A stretch of DNA of 64,000 nt from Halomonas huangheensis (lineage in GTDB: Bacteria; Pseudomonadota; Gammaproteobacteria; Pseudomonadales; Halomonadaceae), in NCBI RefSeq assembly GCF_001431725.1, contig NZ_CP013106.1, positions 558,001-622,000 on the forward strand. The letters are read 5' to 3'. The translations under genes and the position numbers were made by a program. This document shows, piece after piece, positions 5,661-10,755 of this stretch (the first letter of the stretch is position 1; every line of letters starts with the position of its first letter). Under the pieces are notes generated by a model. It ran no database searches. It was not told where the DNA came from and saw only the letters and a list, made by a program, of their open reading frames with translations.

Positions 5661-5826
5661 GTATTGTCGCTTTCGGGGCATGTTGTCGTGTGTCGGCGAC
5701 ACTCTGGCTTGAGGCAATTCAGCAATAATTCATCTCATGTTCATGTTTGGCTAACTGCCTCGTCAGGACGTCACAGAGGCTCGTCCGTAGTATCCGCGTG
5801 TGCTGAACCACACTGAGGATCTCGCC

Positions 5827-6903
5827 ATGACCAGCATGACACCCTTTCCGTCTGACCGTAGCCACGCAATGGCCAAGTGGGCCTTCACCACACGCCGAGT
5901 CCGGCGCCAGGATGTGCATGGCGTAGCACCCTTGAGCAGTGAGGCTCAGTCAGGTGACCTGTTGTTGTGTCGGATCCGCGCAGTCAATCAGCATCGTAGG
6001 ATTCAACTGGCCAGTGGTCGTCATTCGGAGGGGTATCCCGGAGACCAGGTGGTGCTGTGTCTTGGTGATCGCTATGCGCCGGATCAGTTCATGGGGCGCG
6101 CGGCCATTGCTGCGGACTCCATGGATCTACTCGCTGGGGGCGGTGTCGCTGGGTTGGTCGAAGCCGCGCATCGGCGCATGTCGCGCCCGACTGAGTTGGA
6201 GCCGCTGGGTCTGTTGACTGACCGCCAGGGTCAGGTGATCAATATCGCGAGTTATGCCCTGCCAACCATGACCGCGCCTTCCGATATTACGGTGCTGGGT
6301 GTCTTCGGGGCCTCGATGAATGGAGGCAAGACCACCGCAGCAGTAAGCCTGGCCCACGGCCTCCAGGCAGCGGGCTTGCGGGTTGCGGGTATCAAGGCCA
6401 CCGGAACAGGTGCCTTCGGTGACTACAATGCCTTCGCTGACGCGTCCATTGCTGTCAGTGACTTCACTGATGCAGGTATGGCTTCGACCTATCGCATGCC
6501 GTTGGAACGCATCGAGAAAGGGTTCGCCACTCTGGTTGGTCATGCTGCTCGTGAGGGCGCTCAGGTTGCCGTAGTCGAGATTGCCGATGGCGTGCTGCAG
6601 CAGGAAACGGCGGCCATTCTGAACGGTTCAAGTATCGTACAACGCCTTGACGGTATGTTGTTCGCCGCGCCCGATGCATTGAGTGCGGTTGGTGGTATCA
6701 ATGTTCTGGCGCAGTCTGGCCATCGTCCCTTCGCTCTCTCCGGCATGTTGAGCCTGTCGGCGCTGGGTGCGCGCGAGGCAGAATCTGCCACTGGGTTGCC
6801 TGTTCTGACCCGTGAGCAACTCTGGGCCCCCGAAACTATCATGCCGCTGGTGCAAGGGTACTTGCGCAAGAGCTCTGCGGTGACAGGAACGGCAGCAGCC
6901 TGA
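5827..6903 (+). CDS. P-loop NTPase of unknown function, first gene of an overlapping ABC/two-component operon
   Basis: A 358-residue protein with two parts. Residues 1-150 look beta-rich (GDLLLCRIRAVNQHRRIQLA, then RYAPDQFMGRAAI) and match no domain I can name. From about 156 comes a dethiobiotin-synthetase/MobB-like P-loop: Walker A of the [AG]x4GK[ST] form at 162-169 (ASMNGGKT), then KATGTGAFGDYN, and a hydrophobic strand ending in acidic residues (VAVVEIADG, 247-255) that could serve as Walker B. It could be a GTP/ATP-dependent ligase, kinase or chaperone. The GTG at 5800 is possible, but ATG 5827 has GAGGAT at good spacing. The stop TGA overlaps the next ATG (TGATG). Confidence 0.6.
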   Translation: MTSMTPFPSDRSHAMAKWAFTTRRVRRQDVHGVAPLSSEAQSGDLLLCRIRAVNQHRRIQLASGRHSEGYPGDQVVLCLGDRYAPDQFMGRAAIAADSMDLLAGGGVAGLVEAAHRRMSRPTELEPLGLLTDRQGQVINIASYALPTMTAPSDITVLGVFGASMNGGKTTAAVSLAHGLQAAGLRVAGIKATGTGAFGDYNAFADASIAVSDFTDAGMASTYRMPLERIEKGFATLVGHAAREGAQVAVVEIADGVLQQETAAILNGSSIVQRLDGMLFAAPDALSAVGGINVLAQSGHRPFALSGMLSLSALGAREAESATGLPVLTREQLWAPETIMPLVQGYLRKSSAVTGTAAA

Positions 6904-8504
6904 TGTCATTGCCTGCCATCTCCGGAGGGCGGCGCGGTATTGATATGTCGCTGGTGGCTGGCATGGGGGTGATGCAGGCCATACTGATGATCATCAATGC
7001 CTTTGCCACCCGAGACCTGTTTCTCGCCCTGCATACATCCAGTCCTCTGCCGGTGATGGATCTGGCAACCCTGGTGCTGGCCGCGTTGGCGATTGCTGCG
7101 CTCCAGGCCCTGGCTCGAGTCAGGGCAGAAGCTATCGGTCAGAGCTATAACCTCGAGCTTCGCCAGCGTCTGTTCGAGGCCATTGCCGGGATGCCGACCG
7201 AGCAACGTGATGGCCGTCGTCTTGGCGGACTGTCATTGCGGTTCGTCGGTGACCTGAGTGCAGCTCGAGGTTGGGTCGGGTTGGGTATTACCCGACTGTT
7301 GTCAGGTGTCATCGTATTGCCTATGGCTGGGCTGTGCCTGTGGTGGTTGAATCCTTTGCTTGCCCTGGCGGGTGGTATTCCAATATTGCTGGCGGTGGCG
7401 GTTTCACTGGCAATGGGCAGCGCGCTCAATCGTCTGCACCACAACTTGCGTCGACGTCGCGCTGGTGTGGCTATTGCCGCCATGGAGCGTATCAGTATCG
7501 CGCGAGAGCTGGCGTTGATGAATCGCTTGCCACGCGAGTTGAGCTATCTCGAACGCAAGGGCTCTCGATCAGCGGATGATGCAGTGCAGCGTGTGCATCG
7601 AGTTGCCCTGTTGAGAGCCGTACCCAATGCCTCGTTGGGAATTTCCGCAGCCGCCATACTCTGGATCGCGGCGCAGGTCGGCATTCCTGTCGCCGAAGCG
7701 GCAGCGGCACTGTCGGTGTTGGCGGTTCTGGTTCTGCCCCTCAAGGAGTTCGTCGGGGTGTGGGACCGTTACAATGGATGGCGTATTGCACGAAGAAAGT
7801 GTCAGCGTCTGTTGGCGGAAGCGAGCGTGGTACCACGTCCGCGCCGGCAGCGTCGTGCCGTAGGTATCGACCTGGATAATATCTCGGTAGGCGGGGTATC
7901 GCTCAATCTCACCATTCGCCCCGGTCAGTGTGTGCGCATTGTGGCACGAGACGGTGATCAGGCCGGAATGCTGGTGGAGGCGATAGCCTTGCGGCGCTGT
8001 TGTGACACAGGCACCATCCGCTTCAGCAGCAACGAGTTGCCAGCAATATTATATGTCTGTGATACGCCAACCGTACTTCGGGGTAGTCTACGCCGTGCCT
8101 TGACCCTGGCGGCTGCGGCACGTCCAGGCGACGAGCGTCTGCGAGAAGTCGCCGTTGGCTGCGGTCTGGGTGAGTTGCTGAAGCGCCTGGGAGGCCTTGA
8201 TGGCCGACTGGCTGAGCAGGGACGTAACCTGTTGCCCGGGGAGCGAATGCGGCTGTCCGTCGTTCAGGCGTTGGTTGCCCGGCCGGATATCATCGTCATC
8301 AATAGCCGGCTGTGGCCAGGCTTGGCAGATGGTCAGGCGCTATTGGAGCTGCTGGTGGCAACCGGCGCGACGCTGGTGCACACGTTGCCGGAAGGCATTG
8401 ACGCTGGTAACAGCCATGTGCTGGTCGTGCAGGCATCCGACAGGGAGTGGAGCATTCAGCCGTCGGCGCCACAGGAAGAGGTCTTACGTACGGATACGCA
8501 ATGA
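6903..8504 (+). CDS. ABC-exporter-like membrane protein with degenerate (probably inactive) nucleotide-binding domain
   Basis: A 533-residue protein laid out like a type IV ABC half-exporter: an N-terminal membrane region with about six hydrophobic helices (about 15-300) and a C-terminal NBD-like domain (about 320-515). The NBD keeps its outline, but its catalytic motifs are gone. The Walker A position (348-356) reads ARDGDQAGM with no GKS/T. The Q-loop region reads YVCDTP. The signature LSGGQ is LLPGE (443-447). The Walker B aspartate and catalytic glutamate are replaced by N467-S468 (IIVINS). A His near the H-loop survives (TLVHTLPE). The open frame argues against a plain pseudogene. Starts and stops overlap both neighbours, so it is probably co-translated with the NTPase and histidine kinase. 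Confidence 0.75.
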   Translation: MSLPAISGGRRGIDMSLVAGMGVMQAILMIINAFATRDLFLALHTSSPLPVMDLATLVLAALAIAALQALARVRAEAIGQSYNLELRQRLFEAIAGMPTEQRDGRRLGGLSLRFVGDLSAARGWVGLGITRLLSGVIVLPMAGLCLWWLNPLLALAGGIPILLAVAVSLAMGSALNRLHHNLRRRRAGVAIAAMERISIARELALMNRLPRELSYLERKGSRSADDAVQRVHRVALLRAVPNASLGISAAAILWIAAQVGIPVAEAAAALSVLAVLVLPLKEFVGVWDRYNGWRIARRKCQRLLAEASVVPRPRRQRRAVGIDLDNISVGGVSLNLTIRPGQCVRIVARDGDQAGMLVEAIALRRCCDTGTIRFSSNELPAILYVCDTPTVLRGSLRRALTLAAAARPGDERLREVAVGCGLGELLKRLGGLDGRLAEQGRNLLPGERMRLSVVQALVARPDIIVINSRLWPGLADGQALLELLVATGATLVHTLPEGIDAGNSHVLVVQASDREWSIQPSAPQEEVLRTDTQ

Positions 8505-10060
8505 AGATAGTGGGGGTCGTCGCTGGCTATACCTTGATTCTGTTGACCATGGCCATCGGTGGTGCGCTGCTGGCTTTCTGGAACGTTGAACGCACGACCT
8601 GGCTGACCGACCGCATGAACCTTGCGCACCGCTCCTATAGTGCCCACCTGCGACTATCGGCACACAGCTATCAATTGTTCAAGCAGTTCGGCGATGCGGT
8701 GGTGATCGGTGATCAGGATGGAGGGCGTGGGGAGCGCGAGATGATTGCGCGAGTTCTCGAGGACATCAGTGAGATTCGCTCGATCATTTACGCAGAGATT
8801 CGTCTGGCAGGAGAAGGAGAGCGCGAGGAGCTGGTTGTCAGTGAAAGGATCGCCAGCAAGCTCAACGCGTTGATCATCGAATTCGATGACTTGATTCGTA
8901 GTGGTCAGAGCCTTGACCCGGTAACACGCTGGCTACGTTTCTCGAGCCTGTTGGACGAAAGGATTGATCAGGAGTTTCGTTCGCTCATGGAAGGTGCGAT
9001 CAGGGAAGAAAGTGAAGAAGCCGAAGCGGCTCGTCAGGCATTGGCGGAAGGTGCGCGGCGAATTCGTATCATCGCCATGGTCTTTGCGTTGATGGCCACG
9101 TTGCTGACGTTGGCGGTAACCATCTATTACCGCAGGCGGGTGGCATGGCCGCTGAAGCGCTTGATGCTGGGTGTTGAGCAGATGCGTGCTGGTGACTTCA
9201 ACCGCCCGATCACGGTATCGGGACGTGATGAAGTTAGTCATATCAGTCACTTGATCAACCAGTTGGCATCAGATGTTGATGAACATCGTCAGGCACTGGA
9301 GCGGCAGAACGCGCGCCTCGAAAGCGCCGTCGCCGAGCGTACCAGGGAGCTCGAACGCCTGCTGGAGGAAGCTCGCCAGGCAGAGCGCAACCGTCGGCGA
9401 CTGCTGGCCGAAGTCAGCCATGAGCTCAGGACGCCGCTGACTATCATCCATGGTGAAAGCGACGTGGCGTTGCGCGGGCGGCATACCTCGGAAGGCGAAT
9501 ATCGTGAGGCGTTGAAGCGCACGCGTGAAGTGGCCGCACACACCTCAGCACTGATCGGGGATCTGTTGTTCATCGCTCGCCAGGAGGGCGGTAACCCGAG
9601 TCTCCAGTGCGAGTCCGTTGATCTGGTTGTTTTTCTCAAGGATGCATTGAGCCTGGCGCCGCGGCTGGTGTCACTGGATACCACTTTGTCGCAAGCCTTC
9701 ATCTGTGGCGATCGTCTGCGTCTGAGGCAGTCAGTGCTGGCACTGCTGCAGAATGCGAGGTTGTACGGTGGTGAATACCTGGTTGTTGGCCTCCAGGCCA
9801 AGGGTGACGATTTCCGTATTGCCGTCGAGGATGATGGGCCGGGGCTCAGCGACACCGATAAGGAGCTGGTGTTCGAACGCTTCTTTCGAGGCACCAACGC
9901 GGCACGGAATTATACCGAGGGCAGTGGGCTGGGGTTACCGATCGTGCGCTCCATCGCCCGAGCCCATGGTGGTGATGCCGGGTTGTACGACCGCGATGGA
10001 GGAGGCCTGGTGGTATATCTGGATTTACCTCGCGGCGGTGCCGTGGAGGTGTGCTCATGA
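8501..10060 (+). CDS. Membrane sensor histidine kinase (HAMP, HisKA, HATPase_c)
   Basis: A 519-residue inner-membrane sensor kinase. TM1 is at about 4-27. A helical periplasmic domain of about 150 residues follows (rich in Arg/Glu, probably a four-helix bundle), then TM2 at about 186-207 and a HAMP domain starting at PLKRLMLGVEQMRAG. The coiled-coil signalling helix (RLESAVAERTRELERLLEEA) leads to the H-box SHELRTPLTIIHGE with His307. The ATPase domain has N (LLQNARLYGG), G1 (EDDGPGL), F (FERFFRG) and G2 (GSGLGLPIV) boxes. It should be catalytically complete. A start at 8447 is possible, but ATG 8501 overlaps the ABC-like stop (ATGA). Its cognate regulator follows with overlap. Confidence 0.92.
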   Translation: MKIVGVVAGYTLILLTMAIGGALLAFWNVERTTWLTDRMNLAHRSYSAHLRLSAHSYQLFKQFGDAVVIGDQDGGRGEREMIARVLEDISEIRSIIYAEIRLAGEGEREELVVSERIASKLNALIIEFDDLIRSGQSLDPVTRWLRFSSLLDERIDQEFRSLMEGAIREESEEAEAARQALAEGARRIRIIAMVFALMATLLTLAVTIYYRRRVAWPLKRLMLGVEQMRAGDFNRPITVSGRDEVSHISHLINQLASDVDEHRQALERQNARLESAVAERTRELERLLEEARQAERNRRRLLAEVSHELRTPLTIIHGESDVALRGRHTSEGEYREALKRTREVAAHTSALIGDLLFIARQEGGNPSLQCESVDLVVFLKDALSLAPRLVSLDTTLSQAFICGDRLRLRQSVLALLQNARLYGGEYLVVGLQAKGDDFRIAVEDDGPGLSDTDKELVFERFFRGTNAARNYTEGSGLGLPIVRSIARAHGGDAGLYDRDGGGLVVYLDLPRGGAVEVCS

Positions 10061-10755
10061 ATATTCTGGTGATTGAGGATGAAGACCGCGTTGCCGATTT
10101 CATCTGTCGAGGTTTACGCGGTGAGGGCTGGTGTGCGACACACTGCGGCGATGGCGAAAGCGCACTGACAATGCTCCGTGACAATGTGTTTGACGTCGTG
10201 CTGCTGGACATCGTGTTGCCCGGGATCACAGGGCACGAAGTCTGTTCGCGAATGCGTGCGGGCGAGGATCATACGCCGGTGCTGATGCTCACTGCACTGG
10301 ATGCCACCGACGAAAAGGTCACGGGGCTGCGCCGAGGCGCTGACGATTATCTCTCCAAACCCTTCAGTTTCGATGAGCTGATTGCCCGTATCGAGGCTTT
10401 GCATCGCCGTGCCGCGGCATTCGCCCCGACGACGACTGGCAAGGGCAGCAGTGCCGTTCAGTTCGATCGCGAGGCACTGTGCTTGAGGGTCGGCGGTGAA
10501 AGTGTGACGCTGTCGACGCGCGAGCGGGATCTGGTGGTGCTGTTGCTGGCCAATAGTGGCCGGGTGCTCAGCCGCGAGCGAATTCTCAATTCCATCTGGG
10601 GGCTCAATACAGACCCCATGACCAATACGGTCGATGTCTACATTGCCCGTCTGCGCAAGAAGCTGGGCTGTTACGCAGGTCGAATCACCACTGTGCGTGG
10701 CGCTGGCTACCGCTATGATGAAACACCGCTGACCGCTTCAGACCAACCTGGCTGA
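10057..10755 (+). CDS. OmpR/PhoB-family response regulator
   Basis: A 232-residue two-component regulator. The receiver domain has the acidic pair (EDED), phosphoacceptor D51 (VLLDIVLPG), the conserved Thr (LMLTALDA) and Lys (DYLSKPFS). The C-terminal winged-helix DNA-binding domain has TNTVDVYIARLRKKL and the GAGYRYD wing. GTG 10051 is in frame, but ATG 10057 has GGAGGT at proper spacing and overlaps the kinase stop. It is the last gene of the four-gene operon and presumably acts on the operon or on unlinked targets. No direct-repeat binding site was identified. No strong terminator is seen downstream. Confidence 0.93.
   Translation: MNILVIEDEDRVADFICRGLRGEGWCATHCGDGESALTMLRDNVFDVVLLDIVLPGITGHEVCSRMRAGEDHTPVLMLTALDATDEKVTGLRRGADDYLSKPFSFDELIARIEALHRRAAAFAPTTTGKGSSAVQFDREALCLRVGGESVTLSTRERDLVVLLLANSGRVLSRERILNSIWGLNTDPMTNTVDVYIARLRKKLGCYAGRITTVRGAGYRYDETPLTASDQPG

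Follow-up and report, generated by a model that had tools for sequence, protein, structure and literature searches.

What can a membrane protein of the ABC exporter type be doing when it has lost its ATPase and is encoded between a second nucleotide-binding protein and a complete two-component system? This question is raised by four genes of Halomonas huangheensis (contig NZ_CP013106.1) in the 64,000-nucleotide stretch analysed here (hereafter the window), which encode a P-loop NTPase, the ABC-like protein, a histidine kinase (HK) and a response regulator (RR) (Table 1). Our answer, tentative and held at somewhat less than an even chance, is that the operon is a self-regulating, HK-controlled envelope module in which the NTPase and a non-hydrolysing ABC partner act together as the effector. 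The HK would detect a signal in the periplasm through a sensor domain of its own, and the phosphorylated RR would bind a TTCAT-N6-TTCAT repeat approximately 100 nt before the first gene and switch on all four genes, positive feedback being assumed. The ABC protein, having lost ATP hydrolysis, would now be an ATP-independent membrane partner touched and acted on by the SIMIBI-class NTPase, presumably without transport.

Table 1. Positions of the operon genes and of their notable features in the window
Feature	Position	Strand	Remarks
TTCAT-N6-TTCAT direct repeat	5729..5744	+	98 nt before NTPase ATG; proposed RR site
P-loop NTPase	5827..6903	+	358 aa; ATG 5827, stop 6901-6903
Type IV ABC-exporter-like protein with nucleotide-binding domain (NBD) predicted to be ATPase-dead	6903..8504	+	533 aa; ATG 6903, stop 8502-8504
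Pseudo-NBD, aa 318-510	7854..8432	+	Model keeps ABC fold; catalytic motifs gone
Walker A position, ARDGDQAG (aa 348-355)	7944..7967	+	Relatives: GxNGxGKS
Walker B Asp-Glu position, VINS (aa 465-468)	8295..8306	+	Relatives: LLDE
HK	8501..10060	+	519 aa; ATG 8501, stop 10058-10060
Predicted periplasmic sensor segment of HK, aa 31-186	8591..9058	+	Transmembrane prediction; ~155 residues
OmpR/PhoB-type RR	10057..10755	+	232 aa; ATG 10057, stop 10753-10755

The ABC-like protein, the NTPase and their distribution

Motifs and Pfam domains (HAMP, HisKA with SHELRTPL and HATPase_c in the HK, receiver and Trans_reg_C in the RR) bear out the four gene identities given in the initial annotation, and the stop/start overlaps by which it had joined the genes (TGATG at 6901-6905, ATGA at 8501-8504 and ATGA at 10057-10060, adjacent genes sharing 1 or 4 nt) are exact. 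It had also described the ABC-like protein as unable to hydrolyse ATP, with which the motifs agree. Only the Pfam model ABC_membrane reaches its cut-off in this protein (ABC_tran scores 15 bits, cut-off 25). In the structural model a type IV exporter fold, with six-helix transmembrane domain (TMD), domain-swapped coupling region and C-terminal NBD fold, spans residues 2-527, and there is no large extracellular domain. The motif set of an active pump (Walker A Lys, Walker B Glu, LSGGQ-like signature, H-loop His) has been lost: besides the altered Walker positions, the signature position reads LLPGE (aa 443-447) instead of LSAGE, and VHTLP (aa 492-496) stands at the H-loop position. By these motifs the protein is predicted to be ATPase-dead.

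Related loci were taken as the best 80 of 216 NTPase relatives obtained in a profile-based scan. Among 76 ABC proteins scored (75 loci and the window), 32 were intact, 33 dead, eight retained Walker A only and three were truncated; 72 loci could be classed as intact (32) or degenerate (40). Intact ABC genes in homologous operons, which the initial annotation had counted against its proposal, thus do exist, but they lie in separate branches. In trees of the TMD alone the 40 degenerate rows grouped together (support 88 and 93 in two trees; 39 rows at 97). The rows with Walker A only are scattered among the dead ones, so the first losses were probably those of Walker B and the signature, with Walker A disappearing later on several occasions. 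The Walker B Glu was lost separately in another, gammaproteobacterial group (L202, L203, L205), which sits on a long branch. Mean column identity across the degenerate clade was 0.50 for the dead NBD vs 0.64 for the TMD, and the NBD fold and the GSLRR region are conserved. Ratios of nonsynonymous to synonymous substitution (dN/dS) against the Halomonas cupida locus were 0.108 (dead NBD), 0.092 (TMD), 0.093 (NTPase) and 0.072 (HK); for the dead NBD, values of 0.11-0.35 in four species pairs indicate purifying selection. A decaying pseudogene was rejected, since dN/dS is approximately 0.1 and the same four genes are found again in other genera. These observations suggest that an ATP-driven type IV exporter was the ancestor of the degenerate protein, which has kept the membrane fold and the shape of the NBD.

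The NTPase consists of a beta-rich N-terminal part and a C-terminal SIMIBI-class domain (approximately aa 150-349) containing GASMNGGKTT; Walker A is present in 81 of 81 locus proteins. No Pfam cut-off was passed (CbiA 17.3, DUF1611 14.3 and MobB 12.9 bits, cut-offs at least 25), although a distant relative (L099) reaches 21.8 bits for DUF1611 (PF07755, cut-off 25). Sequence search against PDB sequences gave no match, and a profile gave dethiobiotin synthetase as the best (E 0.0027). On the shared fold of the model and the P-loop, the protein is assigned to the SIMIBI class; it may hydrolyse nucleotide. Its closest folds are enzymes and GTPases, with no known transport motors. DUF1611/dethiobiotin-synthase-like proteins (TM0796, 2g0t; 2obn) are nearest, other SIMIBI rows being tied in Z; the NTPase differs from them in staying below the DUF1611 cut-off and in its N-terminal part, which had no match among the listed folds, the N-terminal 145 residues not having been searched alone.

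Rare co-occurrence of the genes, a second finding that would have counted against the initial annotation, was not seen: a family ABC gene is found with the NTPase gene in 74 of the 80 loci, HK or RR (scored present at no less than 280 and 230 bits, respectively, to the window proteins) in 59, and ABC, HK and RR all accompany it in 54. Two of the six loci without ABC stop at a contig edge (L074, L110), two have an intact-type ABC, 69-71% identical, elsewhere in the genome (L077, L081), and two have only 32-33% matches (L059, L079). The loci come from the Roseobacter group, Paracoccus and relatives, Rhodospirillales, Rhizobiales, Methyloversatilis, Desulfocapsaceae and others. One contig titled Anaerolineae (L106) carries an operon nearly identical to that of the alphaproteobacterial L104 (branches 0.014-0.016) and is probably mis-binned. 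The NTPase profile finds a match in 35 of 369 gammaproteobacterial genomes; in 18, the window's own genome among them, E is <1e-70. Twelve of 15 such regions fetched (L201-L212) have a family ABC adjoining the NTPase, six with an alpha/beta-hydrolase gene; next to the three weakest NTPases there was no such ABC.

The nearest named relative of the operon is that of H. cupida (ABC 78%, HK 86% identical), and of 151 genomes sampled from the host's family two encode the NTPase. A thioesterase-like gene lies approximately 190 nt upstream of the orthologous alanine-dehydrogenase-like gene in five of seven genus relatives (in the other two no thioesterase was found within the flank of that gene), and the same interval measures 5.4 kb in the window, operon included; in H. 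cupida and H. borealis the operon sits between the same neighbours. Its presence in few relatives and these interval lengths show that the operon is a patchily held insert, gained or lost, and suggest a horizontally spread module. No description of the gene set was found in the literature searched, which covered subscription journals only partly. Pfam and further family-model scans gave no model covering the NTPase or the whole set, in agreement with the initial annotation, which knew of no such system.

The two-component system and the TTCAT-N6-TTCAT repeat

Two predicted transmembrane helices of the HK (aa 1-30 and 187-211) enclose a periplasmic segment that is conserved across 60 sequences (motif YQLFKQ-GDAL-IGDRD); with these, the HK need not borrow a receptor. 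HK/RR genes are similarly frequent beside intact (24/32 loci) and degenerate ABC (32/40), so the kinase is not tied to the death of the ABC protein. Seven loci combine NTPase and degenerate ABC without HK/RR (L046, L063, L065, L066, L070, L073, L113); a whole-genome kinase search in these seven genomes gave an approximately full-length match (28-30% identity) in just two, those of L063 and L070. Another eight loci have NTPase and intact ABC without HK/RR. Since NTPase and ABC thus persist in both branches without the two-component system, they would be the effector and HK/RR the controller.

Scanning for 5-mer direct repeats upstream of the NTPase gene revealed TTCAT at an 11-bp period in 41 of 58 HK/RR loci (52 of 58 at one mismatch or fewer); the next non-overlapping words were far rarer. 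In loci without HK/RR it was found in 0 of 19, and among shuffled upstreams in 1 of 16000. Four loci with missing sequence (L003, L074, L088, L110) are not in these counts, and because NTPase starts in relatives were taken 1075 nt before the stop, distances to the repeat are approximate. Three of the 19 (L064, which is one of the eight intact-ABC loci, L077 and L081) hold a more distant HK-RR pair (151-204 bits); in these, unlike the other 16, the opposite strand of the locus bears an exact copy at another place. The repeat also precedes divergently placed HK genes in L037, L051 and L052. HK/RR presence changes at least seven times on the NTPase tree, and in five independent pairs on supported branches the repeat follows HK/RR in 4.6 on average and never the opposite way (p 0.0625). 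Because the repeat comes and goes with HK/RR, these comparisons suggest that the two-component system controls the NTPase-ABC genes, and TTCAT-N6-TTCAT is likely, as a prediction, to be the RR site.

The genome of the window, a single 4.76-Mb contig, holds further copies, five of its nine having a counterpart at the orthologous position in G105, which is closely related to H. cupida. One (L114/L128, own genome 231936) lies between a Zn_protease-family (PF05618) gene and a divergent Gly_transf_sug gene and is conserved in G105. Another (L122/L129-L131, own genome 4232251) is conserved between an AraC-like regulator and a LysM-like gene, both named by eye; its G105 counterpart consists of four TTCAT units in a row, giving three overlapping matches. 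Two more lie among three PepSY-type acidic secreted genes next to a second two-component system (L138:1469-5816, own genome 3980968-3985315), and similar pairs occur in other Halomonas. The PepSY genes were rejected as proof of a regulon: they adjoin that other system, whose RR is 35% identical to the operon's.

Genes beside the operon in related loci

Neighbour counts beside intact and degenerate ABC genes are not phylogenetically independent. With this reservation, an alpha/beta-hydrolase gene accompanies intact ABC in 28 of 32 loci vs 1 of 40 for degenerate ABC, and a hydroxylase gene (PF05118, 62 bits; weakly the lipid A hydroxylase LpxO, 19.4 bits vs a cut-off of 500) in 27/32 vs 0/40. 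A secreted subtilase with an Asp-rich region, together with extracytoplasmic-function (ECF) sigma and anti-sigma factors, was found in 16/32 vs 2/40. The reverse holds for an EF-hand protein ending in a poly-Asp tail, whose gene stands before that of the NTPase in 17/40 degenerate loci and in 0/32 intact ones. The association between ABC death and hydrolase absence (Fisher p ~1e-14) is pseudo-replicated; it comes down to one or, in a second tree, two independent pairs (in the latter, same way 0.9, other way 0.4 on average), which weakens the idea that the two losses were coupled.

In HK/RR loci exact copies of the repeat stand before 12 of 18 EF-hand genes, or 17 if one mismatch is allowed. 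In reversed orientation they stand before 11 of 22 hydroxylase genes, or all 22 with one mismatch, compared with 1 of 7 at the hydroxylase in loci without HK/RR; before the subtilase and the sigma gene the repeat was absent (0/12 each).

The subtilases, Asp-rich and of low complexity, are divergent from the ECF sigma/anti-sigma pair near the NTPase in many alphaproteobacteria (L036:6816-9767 and relatives). The EF-hand proteins are small and secreted, with poly-Asp/Gly ends, and lie directly upstream of the NTPase with their own repeat copy (L050:9337-9786 and 17 similar loci). A conserved gene pair near nine loci (L058:7704-9148, L037, L048, L060, L061, L067, L068, L069, L093) probably consists of a polyphosphate-polymerase-like VTC gene and a DUF4956-like gene. 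A known anti-phage defence system was ruled out with PADLOC: NTPase and ABC had no match, and HK and RR gave only partial matches of 17-19 bits.

Alternative explanations

The initial annotation proposed that the dead ABC protein could relay a signal to the HK as its receptor, in the manner of BceAB but without transport. Part of this stands: the ABC protein appears dead, the genes form a recurring unit, the ABC gene overlapping that of the HK in the window and adjoining it in many loci, and Bce-type transporters signal to their kinase without transport across the membrane, according to PMC10314905. A physical ABC-HK contact is possible. As a whole, however, the proposal seems unlikely, given the seven degenerate-ABC loci that keep the NTPase without HK/RR, the equal frequency of HK/RR beside intact ABC, the repeat, and the conserved periplasmic domain of the HK itself. 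Bce-style flux sensing, moreover, requires the ATPase. With BceAB-RS the operon shares an ABC protein that need not transport, an HK and an OmpR-type RR, with positive feedback expected, and in working principle Bce modules come closest, although three of their defining features are lacking. As described in PMC7828314, BceS-type kinases have no extracellular sensing domain, and the Bce permease has an extracellular loop of 200-250 aa and a separate ATPase subunit. The operon HK instead has approximately 155 residues between its transmembrane helices, its ABC is one fused 533-aa protein of type IV exporter fold, the active ATPase that stimulates the kinase in Bce modules is absent judging by its motifs, and there is an extra SIMIBI NTPase gene. 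BaeSR/CpxA-type systems have the same HK core and RR domain order, but the scores (HK 134.7 vs 603 bits, RR at best 177 vs 279) are far under the equivalog cut-offs.

Could transport continue with a different engine or partner? ArsA drives ArsB, and the SIMIBI NTPase might likewise drive or gate the TMDs in place of the dead NBD, under the control of HK/RR and the repeat. The invariant P-loop of the NTPase, the repeated dispensability of the ABC ATPase, the overlap of the two genes and the docking surface left by the conserved NBD fold and GSLRR region would fit; if true, an ABC transmembrane domain would be run by a non-ABC engine. Loci with intact ABC, however, contain the NTPase to the same extent, so the NTPase does not just stand in for a lost engine, and with no transport motor among its closest folds we regard this as rather improbable. 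Exporters with one degenerate site are an established class, and the closest folds to the ABC protein are halves of heterodimeric exporters (TmrAB, CydDC), so that it might pair with an active half encoded elsewhere. TmrAB, MsRv1273c/72c and CydDC, of the same type IV fold with degenerate sites, nevertheless keep one working site per heterodimer, whereas the single ABC of the operon has lost all motifs checked, even Walker A; no second family member was found in the genome of the window (two further matches have E values no better than 1.3e-4 and 9.8e-4), and the intact clade holds one such gene per locus, all of which makes a heterodimer very improbable. We consider it just as doubtful that the window holds the reduced remnant of a pathway modifying envelope lipids or exported peptides, in whose ancestral form the intact ABC exports a product on which the hydrolase and the hydroxylase act. 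The distribution and Pfam match of these enzymes, and the occurrence of NTPase-ABC-hydrolase in gammaproteobacteria without RR, speak for it, but it fits the relatives better than the window, where neither enzyme adjoins the operon, and the gene associations go back to one or two tree events.

Several observations weigh against the HK-controlled module that we favour. Five pairs cannot attain p 0.05; the repeat is not exclusive to the operon, with nine copies in the genome of the window (reversed-pattern control, 0); the operon copy of H. borealis is poor (two mismatches); and L102, L104, L106 and L109 have HK/RR and no copy within two mismatches. Of 29 Halomonas loci inspected, five have the repeat next to PepSY genes, and the two of these five genomes that were tested (G084, G115) both lack the NTPase, so another regulator may use TTCAT-N6-TTCAT, including the copies beside PepSY genes. 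The link between ABC death and hydrolase absence is almost a single tree event.

Beside the same NTPase, one ABC protein occurs in intact and in ATPase-dead form, a dated, comparable set by which the use of an ABC exporter without ATP hydrolysis becomes a testable question. The covarying repeat, in turn, offers a specific prediction of the regulator site of a so far uncharacterised two-component system that is spread over marine alphaproteobacteria and some Halomonas.

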